This document shows positions 264 to 12,766 of a stretch of DNA of 33,061 nucleotides, piece by piece; position 1 is the stretch's first letter, and each line of letters begins with the position of its first letter. Source of the DNA: Nitratifractor sp. Lineage in GTDB: Bacteria; Campylobacterota; Campylobacteria; Campylobacterales; Sulfurovaceae. The position numbers and the translations under genes are program-made. The DNA lies in contig NZ_WFQN01000062.1 of NCBI RefSeq assembly GCF_015487065.1, positions 1 through 33,061 on the forward strand. Reading direction: 5' to 3'. The notes under the pieces are model-generated. The model was given only the letters and a program-made list of their open reading frames with translations, searched no databases and was not told the origin of the DNA.

Positions 264-1394
264 ATGGCTGAAGGTCTCACCCACAAAGGGGGCAGCTGCC
301 CCGGTGTCTTTTTGACGATCGTCTCGGTCCCTTTTCTTTTTGTCGCGGCTCTGGCGGCGAGCTTTCTGGGGTATCTGCCCTACGATATCGGGCTCAATAC
401 GCTGATCACCGTCGCTTTCATCTTCGTTGTCTTTCTCTTCTTCATCCCCCACAACGCCAGCTACGCCGCCTGTCGGATCTCCAAAAACTTCGCCCTCATG
501 GAGGAGGCGTTGCAGGAGGGGCTCAAAAAGAACGCTCTGACCATCATGGGCAAGACCAAATCGACTCTGACGGTCCGGGAGTTTGTCGACGACTACTTCA
601 AGGATGTCCGGGACGACAACTATGCCCGGGTCGCCGCTTCGATCTTCCCGATGCTGGGAATCCTGGGGACCTTCCTGGCCATCGCCCTCTCGATGCCCGA
701 TTTCACAGTGCAGAGCAGTGAAAAGCTCGACCGGCAGATCTCCTTGCTTCTGGCGGGGATCGGAACCGCCTTCTACGCCTCGATCTACGGGATTTTCCTT
801 TCGCTGTGGTGGATCTTTTTCGAGCGGCGGGGGCTGGCGAGGATCGAGCGGGAGGTTCTGGCGCTGGAGGCACTCTACAACAGCCGGATCTGGAGCCGGA
901 GCGAACTGGTCAAGCACGAGCATATGGAGAGCGAGCTCAAGGACCAGAAGATCATCCGCACGCTCCAGGAGACCTTCAATCTGGACTTCATCAAGGATAT
1001 GAACGCCCAGTATATGCGCAACTACCAGAAGATCGTCGAAGATACCAGCCGCAGCTTCGCCCTGCTGGCGGAGAAGATGCAGGAGAGTTCCCGGGATCTG
1101 CGCCAGACGCTGGAGCGGCTGGAAGACCGCCGGGAGAGCCTGCGGGCGGAGGAGGCGATGCGCCGGAACATGGAGCGTTTCGTTCAGACCTCCGAGAAGC
1201 TGGAAGCGGGGCTGGAGCATTTCGATGAGAGCGTGGAACGGACCCTGGAGAAGGTCGATTTCGAGCTGGCCTCTGCCGTGGAGCGACTTGGACGGATGAC
1301 GGAGCTGATCGCCCGGGAGCAGGAGCGGATCCGCCGGCAGACACGCCATGCTGCACGGGAGCCTGAGGAGACCGGTCCCGACGGAGAGCGCTGA
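264..1394 (+). CDS. MotA/TolQ/ExbB-like channel with helical tail
   Basis: This is a 376-residue inner-membrane protein of the MotA/TolQ/ExbB proton-channel type. Four hydrophobic segments are visible, near residues 15-37, 45-62, 124-144 and 161-186. The third carries the typical glycine-rich signature IFPMLGILGTFLAIAL. The fourth is followed by about 185 residues of charged, helical, coiled-coil-like sequence predicted to lie in the cytoplasm. ATG 264 was chosen over 249 because GGAGG at 251-255 sits eight bases before it; the 249 start would overlap that site. The stop overlaps the start of the OmpA-like gene (TGATG), so the two are translationally coupled. A MotA-like channel with a long cytoplasmic tail and a MotB-like partner is the arrangement of ZorA/ZorB. 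The specific role is unknown. Confidence 0.85.
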   Translation: MAEGLTHKGGSCPGVFLTIVSVPFLFVAALAASFLGYLPYDIGLNTLITVAFIFVVFLFFIPHNASYAACRISKNFALMEEALQEGLKKNALTIMGKTKSTLTVREFVDDYFKDVRDDNYARVAASIFPMLGILGTFLAIALSMPDFTVQSSEKLDRQISLLLAGIGTAFYASIYGIFLSLWWIFFERRGLARIEREVLALEALYNSRIWSRSELVKHEHMESELKDQKIIRTLQETFNLDFIKDMNAQYMRNYQKIVEDTSRSFALLAEKMQESSRDLRQTLERLEDRRESLRAEEAMRRNMERFVQTSEKLEAGLEHFDESVERTLEKVDFELASAVERLGRMTELIAREQERIRRQTRHAAREPEETGPDGER

Positions 1395-2803
1395 TGTTCC
1401 GAAGAGACCGCCGCCCCGAAGAGAGCCAGAACTTCTGGATCTCCTATGCCGACCTGATGGCCGGGCTGCTCTTTGTCTTTATCCTCCTCATCGGGGCCAT
1501 CGTCTCCAAATCGGTGCTGATGCGGGAGAATCTCCACGAAAAGGAGAAGCGGCTGGAGCAGGCTAGAGTGGAGTTGCAGCACCGGGAAGCCGATCTGAAA
1601 AAGAGCCGGGCCAAGCTGGCACAGATGCGGCGCAGTCTGCAGGAGCGAGAAGCGAAGATCGCCTCGGGCAAAGCGCAGATCAAAAGCCAGCAAAACGTCA
1701 TCGCTCGGCAGAAAGAGCATATCGCCGCCGCCGAGGAGAAGATCCGACTCCAGGCCGAAGAGGTGCGCAAACTCCATCTCCTCCTTCAGGAGCTGAAGCT
1801 CCAGCTCGATCGGGAGCGCAGCGGCAACCAAGTGCTGACCGCACAGGTCCGGGAGATCAACAGCTCCCTCGCCGCCAGCCGAAAAGAGTTGGCAACCCTG
1901 GATAAAAAACTCCGTGAAAAAGAGAACCTGATCACCCTCAGTTCCAAAGACTTGCGCCTCAAAGAGAAGGAGCTCGAACGCCTCAACCAGCTTCTCCTGG
2001 CCCGCAACGCCAAGATCGACGAGCTCAACAAAAAAGTGGTGATCCTCCAGAACCTGGAGCAGGAGAGCAACACGACCCTGGAGCAGAAGCAGAAGAAACT
2101 CCAGGAGTATGTCAACAAGGTGATCGTCCTCTCCGGCAAACTTACCCGGGTACAGGATGAACTGAAGCTCAAAGACGAGAACCTGACCCATCTGCTGGAG
2201 GCCCTGGACAAACAGAAGACCCGCTACGACAATCTGGTGGCGCGTCTGCAGAAGCAGCGAGCCCAGATCAAATCGTTGACCGGTATTCGTCTCAAAGTCA
2301 TCGCGGCGCTCAAAGAGACCTTGGGCCACCGGATCGCCATCGACAAAAAGACCGGTGCCCTGCGGCTCTCCTCCAACATTCTCTTCGACAAAGGGAGTGC
2401 CGAGCTCAAAGAGGAGGCCAAGGCGGAGCTCAAGGATACCTTTGAGAAGTACATCGCCGCCTTGATGAGCAATCGGGCCATCCGTCCCCATCTGGACCGG
2501 ATCATCATCGAAGGGCATACCGACAGCGACGGCGGCTATCTCTACAACCTGGAACTCTCCCAGAAACGGGCCCTCGCGGTCATGAAGTATCTGCTGAGCC
2601 TCCCCATCTCCCAGAAATACCACCTCAAAAAGTACCTGGTCGCCAGCGGACGGGCCTACATGGACCGGATCATCCGCCACGGCAAAGAGGACAAAGAGGC
2701 TTCCCGGCGGATCGAGATCAAATTCACCCTCAAAAACCGGGATGCGATGTATGAGATCGAAAGGATCCTCGATGCGGGAAAGACCCAGCGTCAGCTCTTT
2801 TGA
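1394..2803 (+). CDS. MotB/OmpA-like protein with long coiled coil
   Basis: This 469-residue protein is the likely stator partner of the upstream channel. Residues 13-38 (FWISYADLMAGLLFVF) form a single MotB-like membrane helix, with an aspartate (D20) at the position where MotB and ZorB carry the ion-binding acid. Residues of about 42-305 are an almost uninterrupted charged coiled coil. From about residue 328 an OmpA-type peptidoglycan-binding domain follows (ILFDKGSAEL, then GHTDSD near 374, and SRRIEIKF). The start overlaps the upstream stop by one base. By family knowledge the C-terminal domain binds the cell wall and the helix pairs with the channel. The coiled coil is much longer than in MotB or in ZorB as I know them, which is the odd feature. 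Confidence 0.85.
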   Translation: MFRRDRRPEESQNFWISYADLMAGLLFVFILLIGAIVSKSVLMRENLHEKEKRLEQARVELQHREADLKKSRAKLAQMRRSLQEREAKIASGKAQIKSQQNVIARQKEHIAAAEEKIRLQAEEVRKLHLLLQELKLQLDRERSGNQVLTAQVREINSSLAASRKELATLDKKLREKENLITLSSKDLRLKEKELERLNQLLLARNAKIDELNKKVVILQNLEQESNTTLEQKQKKLQEYVNKVIVLSGKLTRVQDELKLKDENLTHLLEALDKQKTRYDNLVARLQKQRAQIKSLTGIRLKVIAALKETLGHRIAIDKKTGALRLSSNILFDKGSAELKEEAKAELKDTFEKYIAALMSNRAIRPHLDRIIIEGHTDSDGGYLYNLELSQKRALAVMKYLLSLPISQKYHLKKYLVASGRAYMDRIIRHGKEDKEASRRIEIKFTLKNRDAMYEIERILDAGKTQRQLF

Positions 2804-2960
2804 ACCGATCCGTCTCAGGGAGGCGGTGCGGAAGCTGGAACGGCAGCTGCGGGAGATGGAGGGGCAGGGGCGGATGACCCATCCCACCCCTCCGCCAAAG
2901 GTTCATAAAGAACGCCCCGGAATTCTGCGTCGATGGTGGCGCCTCCTTTTCGGGAGCTGA
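2772..2960 (+). CDS. Small basic protein coupled to the OmpA-like gene
   Basis: This 62-residue reading frame starts inside the end of the OmpA-like gene (32-base overlap), with AAGGA a few bases before its ATG. It has a charged helical N-terminal half (LREAVRKLERQLREMEG), a PTPPPK linker and a very basic aromatic tail (RRWWRLLFG). The track's earlier start at 2742 lacks a better ribosome site. The tail could bind a membrane surface or partner with the stator tail, but this is speculation. It matches no family I recognise. Its tight coupling to the two upstream genes is the best sign that it is real. Confidence 0.5.
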   Translation: MRERPSVSSFEPIRLREAVRKLERQLREMEGQGRMTHPTPPPKVHKERPGILRRWWRLLFGS

Positions 2961-2981
2961 GAAAGAGTGAAGAACTCTTTT

Positions 2982-3079
2982 CGTTCCCATCCGTCCTCGG
3001 TGGGAACGCTTACGAGAGTGATTAACCTTTGATGAATCTTCTACATCGGGATATGCATTCCCACCAGGATGGTGGGAAC
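2982..3079. repeat. Two copies of a GTTCCCA/TGGGAAC hairpin repeat
   Basis: Copy one (2982-3008) has CGTTCCCA pairing with TGGGAACG across an 11-base loop. Copy two (3057-3079) has TTCCCACC pairing with GGTGGGAA across a 5-base loop. The two share orientation and core and lie about 50 bases apart in non-coding DNA. REP-like palindromes with this GTTCCCAC core occur in many bacterial genomes. Confidence 0.7.
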
Positions 3080-3112
3080 GAGAGGAAAAACCTAAGAGTT
3101 GCGCTTGCGTCA

Positions 3113-3183
3113 TCCTGAACTTAATTCAGGACCCACGGTTTAATGGGTATTCAAAGCCCTGGATTCCGGGTCAAGCCCGGAAT
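3113..3183. repeat. Composite palindromic intergenic repeat
   Basis: Two stems are visible: TCCTGAA with TTCAGGA (3113-3119 and 3125-3131), and ATTCCGGG with CCCGGAAT (3163-3170 and 3176-3183). The second lies in the widespread phrase ggattccgggtcaagcccgg, known as a dispersed intergenic element in many proteobacteria. It may also serve as a terminator between the convergent genes on either side, although no U tract follows directly. Confidence 0.65.
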
Positions 3184-3208
3184 GACGGTTGTTTTTCAGA
3201 ACACTTAA

Positions 3209-11883: not shown

Positions 11884-12261
11884 TTATTGGGCGGTGACGA
11901 TGGAGATCTTTTTGAAGCCCTTGCGTTTCAGGATATCGATGACGGTGACGAATTTCTGAAATTGGCTTTTTTGATCGGCATTGAGAGTGACAAGATCCTT
12001 GACGGGATCGAGTTTGCCGAGGTGTGTTTTGAGCTCCTCCAGGGTGACGGGACGCTTCTCGAAAAAGTAGTGCCCCGTCTTGTCGATGGTGATGGAGATG
12101 CTTTTGGGTGGGATCTTGGCCTGGCTACCCGATTGGGGCAGATCGACGGGGAGCTCGTTTTTGATGACGAAGGTGGCGGTGGCCAGGACGATGACCAGCA
12201 ACACCAGGACGATGTCGATGAAGGGAACGACATTGATTTCGGTAAAACGGCGTCGTCTCAT
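11884..12261 (-). CDS. exbD: ExbD/TolR biopolymer transport protein
   Basis: The 125-residue protein has a short cytoplasmic N-terminus, one membrane helix (about residues 12-32) carrying the conserved aspartate in VVPFIDIVLVLLVIVL, and a periplasmic domain. It pairs with ExbB to form the proton-driven motor that energises TonB-dependent outer-membrane transport. Its start overlaps the exbB stop by four bases (ATGA). No tonB gene follows; the next gene is a radical SAM enzyme. TolR is the alternative identity; the short length and the partner favour ExbD. Confidence 0.9.
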   Translation of the reverse strand: MRRRRFTEINVVPFIDIVLVLLVIVLATATFVIKNELPVDLPQSGSQAKIPPKSISITIDKTGHYFFEKRPVTLEELKTHLGKLDPVKDLVTLNADQKSQFQKFVTVIDILKRKGFKKISIVTAQ

Positions 12262-12704
12262 CGGTCCCCGTCGCTCTGGTTGAGGATCTCCCAGCGGGTG
12301 AGGAGACGATCGACCCGGTCCATCAGGACATTGTAGAAGATCGAGGCGGGGATGGCGACAATGAGACCGGCGGCGGTGGCTTTGAGGGCCAGAGCGAGGT
12401 TTTTCATGATCTCCCCGGTGTCGATGGCGGTTTTCTGCTCGCCGATGACATAAAAGGTGAGGATGATGGCGATAACGGTCCCCAGCAGGCCGATATAGGG
12501 GGCACTGGAGCCGATGGTGGCCAGGGGTCCCAGATGGCGTCCCAGGTCCAGTTCCAGCATTTTACGGTTGGGATATTGGGCCAGGTCGATCCGGCGGAAG
12601 AAAAGGAACCGCTCGATAGCGTAGGCGAACGTAGCGACACTCATGAGGAGTAGGATGCCGATGATGCCGTAATCGACGATATTTTTGAGGGTTTCGACGG
12701 GCAC
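12258..12704 (-). CDS. exbB: ExbB/TolQ-type energiser, short form
   Basis: This is a 148-residue MotA/TolQ/ExbB family protein with three membrane helices (about residues 11-31, 72-92 and 108-131). The conserved pore regions are IGSSAPYIGLLGTVIAII and LALALKATAAGLIVAIPASIFYN. The GTG at 12704 (MPVETLKNIVDYG) was chosen over the track's ATG at 12761. AGGAA lies six bases upstream of the GTG, and the extra 19 residues of the longer version run into the promoter of the divergent gene. It is a short ExbB of the kind common in Campylobacterota. Confidence 0.9.
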   Translation of the reverse strand: MPVETLKNIVDYGIIGILLLMSVATFAYAIERFLFFRRIDLAQYPNRKMLELDLGRHLGPLATIGSSAPYIGLLGTVIAIILTFYVIGEQKTAIDTGEIMKNLALALKATAAGLIVAIPASIFYNVLMDRVDRLLTRWEILNQSDGDR

Positions 12705-12734
12705 GTGGCGTTCCTTTTTTCCGAAATTATATCG

Positions 12735-12766
12735 TATAATCCGGAGAGTAGCCGATCCCAAGGAGG
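12735..12766 (+). promoter_or_regulatory. Promoter and ribosome site of the DUF234-like gene
   Basis: A perfect TATAAT (12735-12740) is followed 20 bases later by a perfect AGGAGG (12761-12766). The TATAAT lies downstream of the ORF track's ATG at 12685, which argues against that start. Confidence 0.6.

Follow-up and report, generated by a model that had tools for sequence, protein, structure and literature searches.

Three overlapping genes at the locus

The window, by which we mean the whole stretch of Nitratifractor sp. DNA analysed here (33,061 nucleotides), carries on its forward strand three overlapping open reading frames, here called A, B and C, all of which are present at the coordinates below together with the features recognized in their products.

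264..1394, forward strand: gene A, 376 aa, a MotA/TolQ/ExbB/ZorA-type channel subunit (PF01618, E 8e-9, over the cut-off)
1394..2803, forward strand: gene B, 469 aa, a MotB/ZorB-type subunit (OmpA, PF00691, over the cut-off)
1433..1501, forward strand: transmembrane helix of B, residues 14-36, with the invariant Asp20 in the motif FWISYADLMAGLLF (23 homologues aligned)
1502..2299, forward strand: periplasmic coiled coil of B, residues 37-302, in one unbroken heptad register (heptad phase)
2381..2698, forward strand: OmpA-like peptidoglycan-binding domain of B, residues 330-435, with GHTDSDG...N..LSQ.R conserved (Pfam)
2772..2960, forward strand: gene C, 62 aa, basic, with no transmembrane segment (HMM, selection, charge and moment)

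Gene A, whose ATG at 264 is preceded by a GGAGG site, encodes a protein with transmembrane helices predicted at residues ~13-35, 44-63, 118-142 and 152-188 and a long helical cytoplasmic tail at 241-365. Its AF2 model (mean pLDDT 79) comprises a pair of N-terminal helices, a pair of pore helices and one long helix in the cytoplasm, and among the polar residues of the pore the alignment gives T136 as invariant and T168 as conserved at more than 90%. Gene B overlaps A by a single base (TGATG). In its product, Asp20 and the flanking residues are invariant in the 23 homologues, the MotB_plug profile is weakly matched, and T376, N385, S389 and R392 are invariant in the homologue alignment of the wall-binding domain; the AF2 model (pLDDT 77) consists of a long helix and the OmpA domain. 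At the profile level, A matches the PADLOC ZorA (E 1e-12) and B the PADLOC ZorB1 model PDLC00609 (204 bits, E 7e-61), and the top Foldseek matches are ZorA for A (8qyh/8qyd/8qyk/8vvn, E ~1e-5 to 1e-4) and ZorB for B (8vvi/8qyd/8vvn, E ~1e-10 to 1e-9). The initial annotation had described A as a MotA/ExbB-like channel with a helical tail, B as a MotB/OmpA-like protein and the pair as ZorA/ZorB-like in architecture, a description borne out by the two Pfam assignments, the model of A and the profile, sequence and fold matches. The architecture of the unit is, in our view, well supported.

Gene C, preceded by AAAGGA, starts at 2772 inside B, whose final 32 bases it shares. The small basic third protein of the initial annotation proved to be conserved, and it is C that the survey of neighbouring genes returned as a common third member: a small open reading frame overlaps the stop codon of B in 78 of the 80 named loci, its ATG lying mostly at -11. 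An HMM trained on loci outside the window's clade was run against 13,426 six-frame segments, some of which share genomes with the training set while those of the window's group do not; the top 28 matches were all the frame directly behind B, the window's C being found at E 5e-4 and the first false match at E 0.03. Beyond the stretch shared with B, each of the 30 independent pairs shows amino-acid changes at a lower frequency than silent ones (mean pN/pS 0.39). We conclude that C is a genuine third gene under purifying selection; its position, the HMM and selection rule out a chance reading frame. Across the loci its products measure 42-71 aa, with a median charge of +6, no membrane-spanning stretch and a strongly amphipathic C-terminal helix; the window's C has an N-terminal FxPxxLxxA helix motif and, at its C terminus, a basic amphipathic helix (ILRRWWRLLF). 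Among representatives of other families, which we take to be Arcobacter-, Campylobacter- and Sulfurospirillum-like from their gene context and general knowledge and not from their names, C was not found in the Campylobacter- and Sulfurospirillum-like genomes examined; the Arcobacter-like genomes seem to carry a C of 46-49 aa, as judged by position and motif, its score being non-significant. Besides C, no third gene conserved throughout the order was met in the family loci surveyed. Behind C, the intergenic stretch 2960-3200 contains palindrome-like repeats of the GTTCCCACC...GGTGGGAAC type and of the TCATCCTGAA / CCGGAATGACG type.

Relation to Zorya and to other envelope systems

The tree of the A pore region groups the family with ZorA1/ZorA2, apart from TolQ and ExbB (91/100), and that of the B wall domain groups it with ZorB (88/94), in a group to which the genome's OmpA paralogues belong as well and from which one divergent ZorB1 is missing. 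Both trees (the MotA of G206 being left out of the first and famC_L172 out of the second) rest on alignments that are short and branches that are long, and within the Zor-like group the branching order is poorly settled. A clade of B with ZorB is not rejected (p 0.30), and a clade with MotB is (AU p 0.009). To speak of a new class of motor, as the initial annotation suggested one might, goes too far, since sequence, fold and trees all lead to the ZorAB neighbourhood of the known 5:2 stator superfamily.

The pair shares with ZorA/ZorB of Zorya types I and II (8qyd, 8qyk, 8vvn, 8vvi) the channel with its OmpA-anchored subunit, the Asp motif of the ion path and the cytoplasmic helical tail, in addition to being its closest match in sequence and fold and its neighbour in the trees. 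It differs from them by a shorter A tail, the added gene C, a vertical core-genome distribution, the lack of effectors and the coil of B, which alone spans 123-298 residues in the family whereas the ZorB proteins compared here measure 217-248 aa in total. Indeed, ZorC, ZorD and ZorE gave no match in 129 family loci (the window and 128 others, 1.59 Mb), the search controls being detected (a divergent ZorD pair at E 3e-78, for instance), so that the absence of effectors stated in the initial annotation extends to the whole set and a Zorya operon with overlooked ZorC, ZorD or ZorE is rejected. The pair could still be a phage-defence sensor whose effector is encoded elsewhere, ZorAB sensing envelope perturbation and signalling through the A tail: its nearest characterized relatives by profile and fold are ZorA and ZorB, and its tail resembles that of ZorA. 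We regard this reading as improbable, given the lack of ZorC, ZorD and ZorE in the loci, a vertical and, in the family, near-universal distribution unlike the patchy one of defence islands, scores well below the NCBIfam cut-offs (41 of 500 bits for ZorA_4, 32 of 100 for ZorA_2 and 69 of 400 for ZorB1) and a relative, G058, in which a true Zorya I with ZorC and ZorD stands separately. Lone ZorA2/ZorB2-like pairs with no ZorE in view were seen in two relatives, at L150 6806-10224 (G048) and L152 4459-6256 (G037), the former adjoining ppiC-fba-type genes, as the family pair does in Campylobacter-like genomes.

A force transducer of the Tol/Ton kind, or a plain ion channel, acting at the outer membrane or the division site would also be compatible with the common channel superfamily (PF01618) and with the weak likeness of the AF2 model of A to TolQ/ExbB. 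The partner's periplasmic domain is nevertheless different from that of TolQR/ExbBD, since B carries a coil and an OmpA domain (Pfam) and no ExbD/TolR domain. Furthermore, no conserved TolA/TonB-like gene adjoins the pair, the A tree separates the family from TolQ/ExbB, and the genome has three further PF01618 genes, one of them in a separate ExbB/ExbD-type pair of the window (11884-12761, minus strand). The Tol/Ton reading is accordingly given a low probability.

Long B-type proteins with a terminal OmpA domain are also known under PRK09039, 'peptidoglycan-binding protein' (NCBIfam NF006542-NF006546, ~340-627 positions), to which B is related by a weak match (E ~1e-20, 73 bits against a curated cut-off of 305); the NF006542 cut-off was passed by none of 60 relatives' genomes. 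On the other hand, the window's genome and two others of its genus encode a second OmpA-ended coiled-coil protein of 571-632 aa with a cytoplasmic N-terminal part (L057, G000:C1, 6549-8264; L058 2523-4421; L063 7165-9063), flanked on one side by a helical 185-aa protein and on the other by a Ras-like small GTPase (PF00071) followed by a GGDEF-type protein. We know of no description of such a protein with a Ras-like GTPase as its neighbour. The 571-aa protein of L057 was considered as a member of the same system and set aside on account of its cytoplasmic N-terminal part and of the GTPase.

In the case of the flagellar stators MotAB/PomAB, the superfamily and the OmpA anchoring are shared, and the MotB-like motif and OmpA domain of B could suggest a relict or alternative flagellar stator. 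FliG is, however, absent from all the pair-bearing genomes of the window's family (f1), and the only genome of that family with FliG is without the pair, from which it follows that the pair is not a flagellar stator there. The rejection of the MotB clade and the separate MotAB of flagellated relatives point the same way, and we consider a flagellar role very improbable indeed.

Register and length of the B coiled coil

When B residues 41-300 are scanned in 28-residue windows, a single heptad phase scores best in 33 of 34, a share that did not exceed 62% in any of 2,000 shuffles. A wider phase table extends this phase from residue 37 to 302. The coil contains no proline and, before its end, glycine only at 92, 144 and 248. 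Its 266 residues, at 0.1485 nm each, would measure ~39.5 nm if straight, in agreement with the ~260 residues and ~39 nm first estimated. The AF2 monomer model has low confidence at residues 184-227, where by structure prediction a local break could still be accommodated; the heptad phase runs unchanged through this segment, and we take the dip to be a limit of the monomer model and not a break. A hairpin or hinge at this point was considered and rejected for the same lack of a phase shift, and the break in the coil that would restore ordinary dimensions was not found by heptad phase.

The length of the coil was measured between fixed anchors in 79 B sequences, the window's own and those of 78 named loci, and it is 4 mod 7 in 70 of them, 1 mod 7 in eight (a 4-residue stutter) and 0 mod 7 in one. 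Out of 39 independent nearest pairs, 19 differ in coil length, 16 of these by exact multiples of 7, where equally likely remainders would give ~2.7 of the 19. The other-family representatives follow the same rule, nine of ten coils (the tenth missing the anchor motif) being 4 mod 7, down to 123 residues. Across homologues the coil spans 123-298 residues, mostly 123-193; the window's group is marked by the long form (mostly 253-298), and lengths of 221-249 arose separately in other lineages. The unusual length noticed at first is genuine for the window and is a lineage trait. Changes by odd numbers of heptads are common, and sister species with 98% identical wall domains have coils differing by up to 28 residues (~4 nm). 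The regularity could partly stem from slippage between heptad-coding repeats, in which case the register is kept all the same. The best reading of these observations is that the register of the coil is under constraint and its length is not.

The initial annotation had held that such a coil must fold back, slant or measure something. An unbroken register combined with odd and even heptad changes disfavours a coil folding back as a two-arm hairpin, and the differences between sister species make a fixed-length ruler unlikely; the single register and the whole-heptad steps together argue against hinge, hairpin and ruler alike. The usual periplasm being ~20-30 nm wide, the window's rod of ~38-40 nm would have to be tilted, or the periplasm would have to be wide. 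A search of the literature returned no measured periplasm width for Sulfurovaceae. The pair might alternatively act as a strut, the coil length fixing the width of the periplasm in each species. A rigid in-register rod does join the inner membrane to the wall-binding domain, the 123-298-residue coils form a natural length series, and what sets the distance from inner membrane to wall has been stated as unknown (PMC5771553). We nonetheless find the strut unlikely, in view of the sister species whose coils differ while their wall domains hardly do, of a rod in the window longer than the usual periplasm and of complete genomes that do without the pair.

Distribution, gene context and possible role

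A or B was found in 32 of the 37 searched genomes of the window's family and is scattered through other families of the order, and B is present in 125 of 248 good genomes of the phylum (E 1e-30). Among the records in which the pair appears are ones named Sulfurovum, Nitratifractor and Sulfurimonas and many MAGs. Some complete genomes do without it. The A-B pair belongs to the core of Campylobacterales, where it is inherited vertically, and is not the isolated oddity that the initial annotation implied.

The pair of Campylobacter-like genomes lies after nth, peb4 and fba, names that we read from the translations. By synteny with the C. jejuni map (nth-peb4-fba-A-B), the Campylobacter members are probably Cj0598/Cj0599. 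They belong to the same family as the window's pair, from which they differ by a shorter B (~316 aa), the lack of gene C and a different gene after B. Cj0598 is listed as a hypothetical protein of unknown function (PMC5841378). No functional study of Cj0598 or Cj0599 was met in the open literature, and a mention of Cj0599 under the name of major outer membrane protein is at odds with this gene.

The neighbours of the pair differ between genera. In the window they are speA, cysE, sfsA and other ordinary genes, named from their translations, in accordance with the housekeeping surroundings first described; as the window is an entire contig, what lies upstream of A was taken from a near-identical relative. 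In L085 and ~17 other loci, a gene for a DUF2201 VWA-like/putative metallopeptidase precedes A on the same strand, often by less than 100 nt. At L026 (8479-10321), two genes upstream of A on the opposite strand run divergently from it, one for a DUF6524 protein and the other for a 419-aa membrane protein that matches no Pfam family; seen only in the window's group, they were not retained as members of the unit. In 19 loci, A lies directly downstream of mreC, in the order mreB-mreC-A-B-C, the two genes overlapping by 4 nt at the closest and standing 64 nt apart at the farthest. A convergent mltG lies close behind B-C in 18 others. Against a role read from this context, only one group shows the mreBC link, the mltG link is a convergent one, and neither mreBC nor mltG adjoins the pair in the window's genus. 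Complete genomes of genera g3 and g8 retain mreC without A-B, so that the link is not obligatory and is to be taken as a hint rather than a proof.

The model we propose is that A-B-C is a wall-anchored stator of the ZorAB class serving wall growth or shape and not defence, a proposal on which we are about evenly poised. By homology, five A would surround two B in an ion-driven stator, the ions passing Asp20 of B and the polar residues of A, and, as in ZorAB and MotAB, the A ring with its helical cytoplasmic tail would turn relative to B. The membrane helices of the two B would run unbroken into a parallel two-stranded coiled coil leading to the peptidoglycan-binding OmpA domains, and this coil would be a torsion-stiff shaft by which B is kept fixed against the wall. 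C would be a small partner in the cytoplasm, probably attached to the inner membrane face by its amphipathic helix and in contact with the A tail, as gene overlap, charge and helix pattern suggest. The unit would move the wall-synthesis machinery or report the state of the wall to the cytoplasm. It is the mreBC operon and the mltG context that make wall growth or shape the most likely use, and this cellular role is put forward tentatively, at clearly less than even confidence. A wider possibility is that Campylobacterales, Campylobacter included, conserve a third envelope motor powered by the ion-motive force, next to Tol-Pal and Ton. In it, a stator of the ZorAB class would drive or sense wall elongation through a torsion-stiff shaft varying by heptad steps, and C would couple the rotating tail to the membrane or to MreBC. 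We judge so wide a proposal to be unlikely.

The elements that are new here are C as a third gene, the heptad-step length of the coil and the mreBC/mltG context, the link to the mreBC operon providing a concrete starting hypothesis. Our observations suggest that stators of the ZorAB type are not only parts of defence systems, a related pair being core equipment in much of an order, Campylobacter included. They also bring to light a natural series of shafts, from ~18 to 44 nm, in which the register is fixed and the length is free. Such a series separates anchoring against torque from the measuring of a distance, two ideas that are usually mixed, and helps to make the question of the spacing between inner membrane and wall testable.
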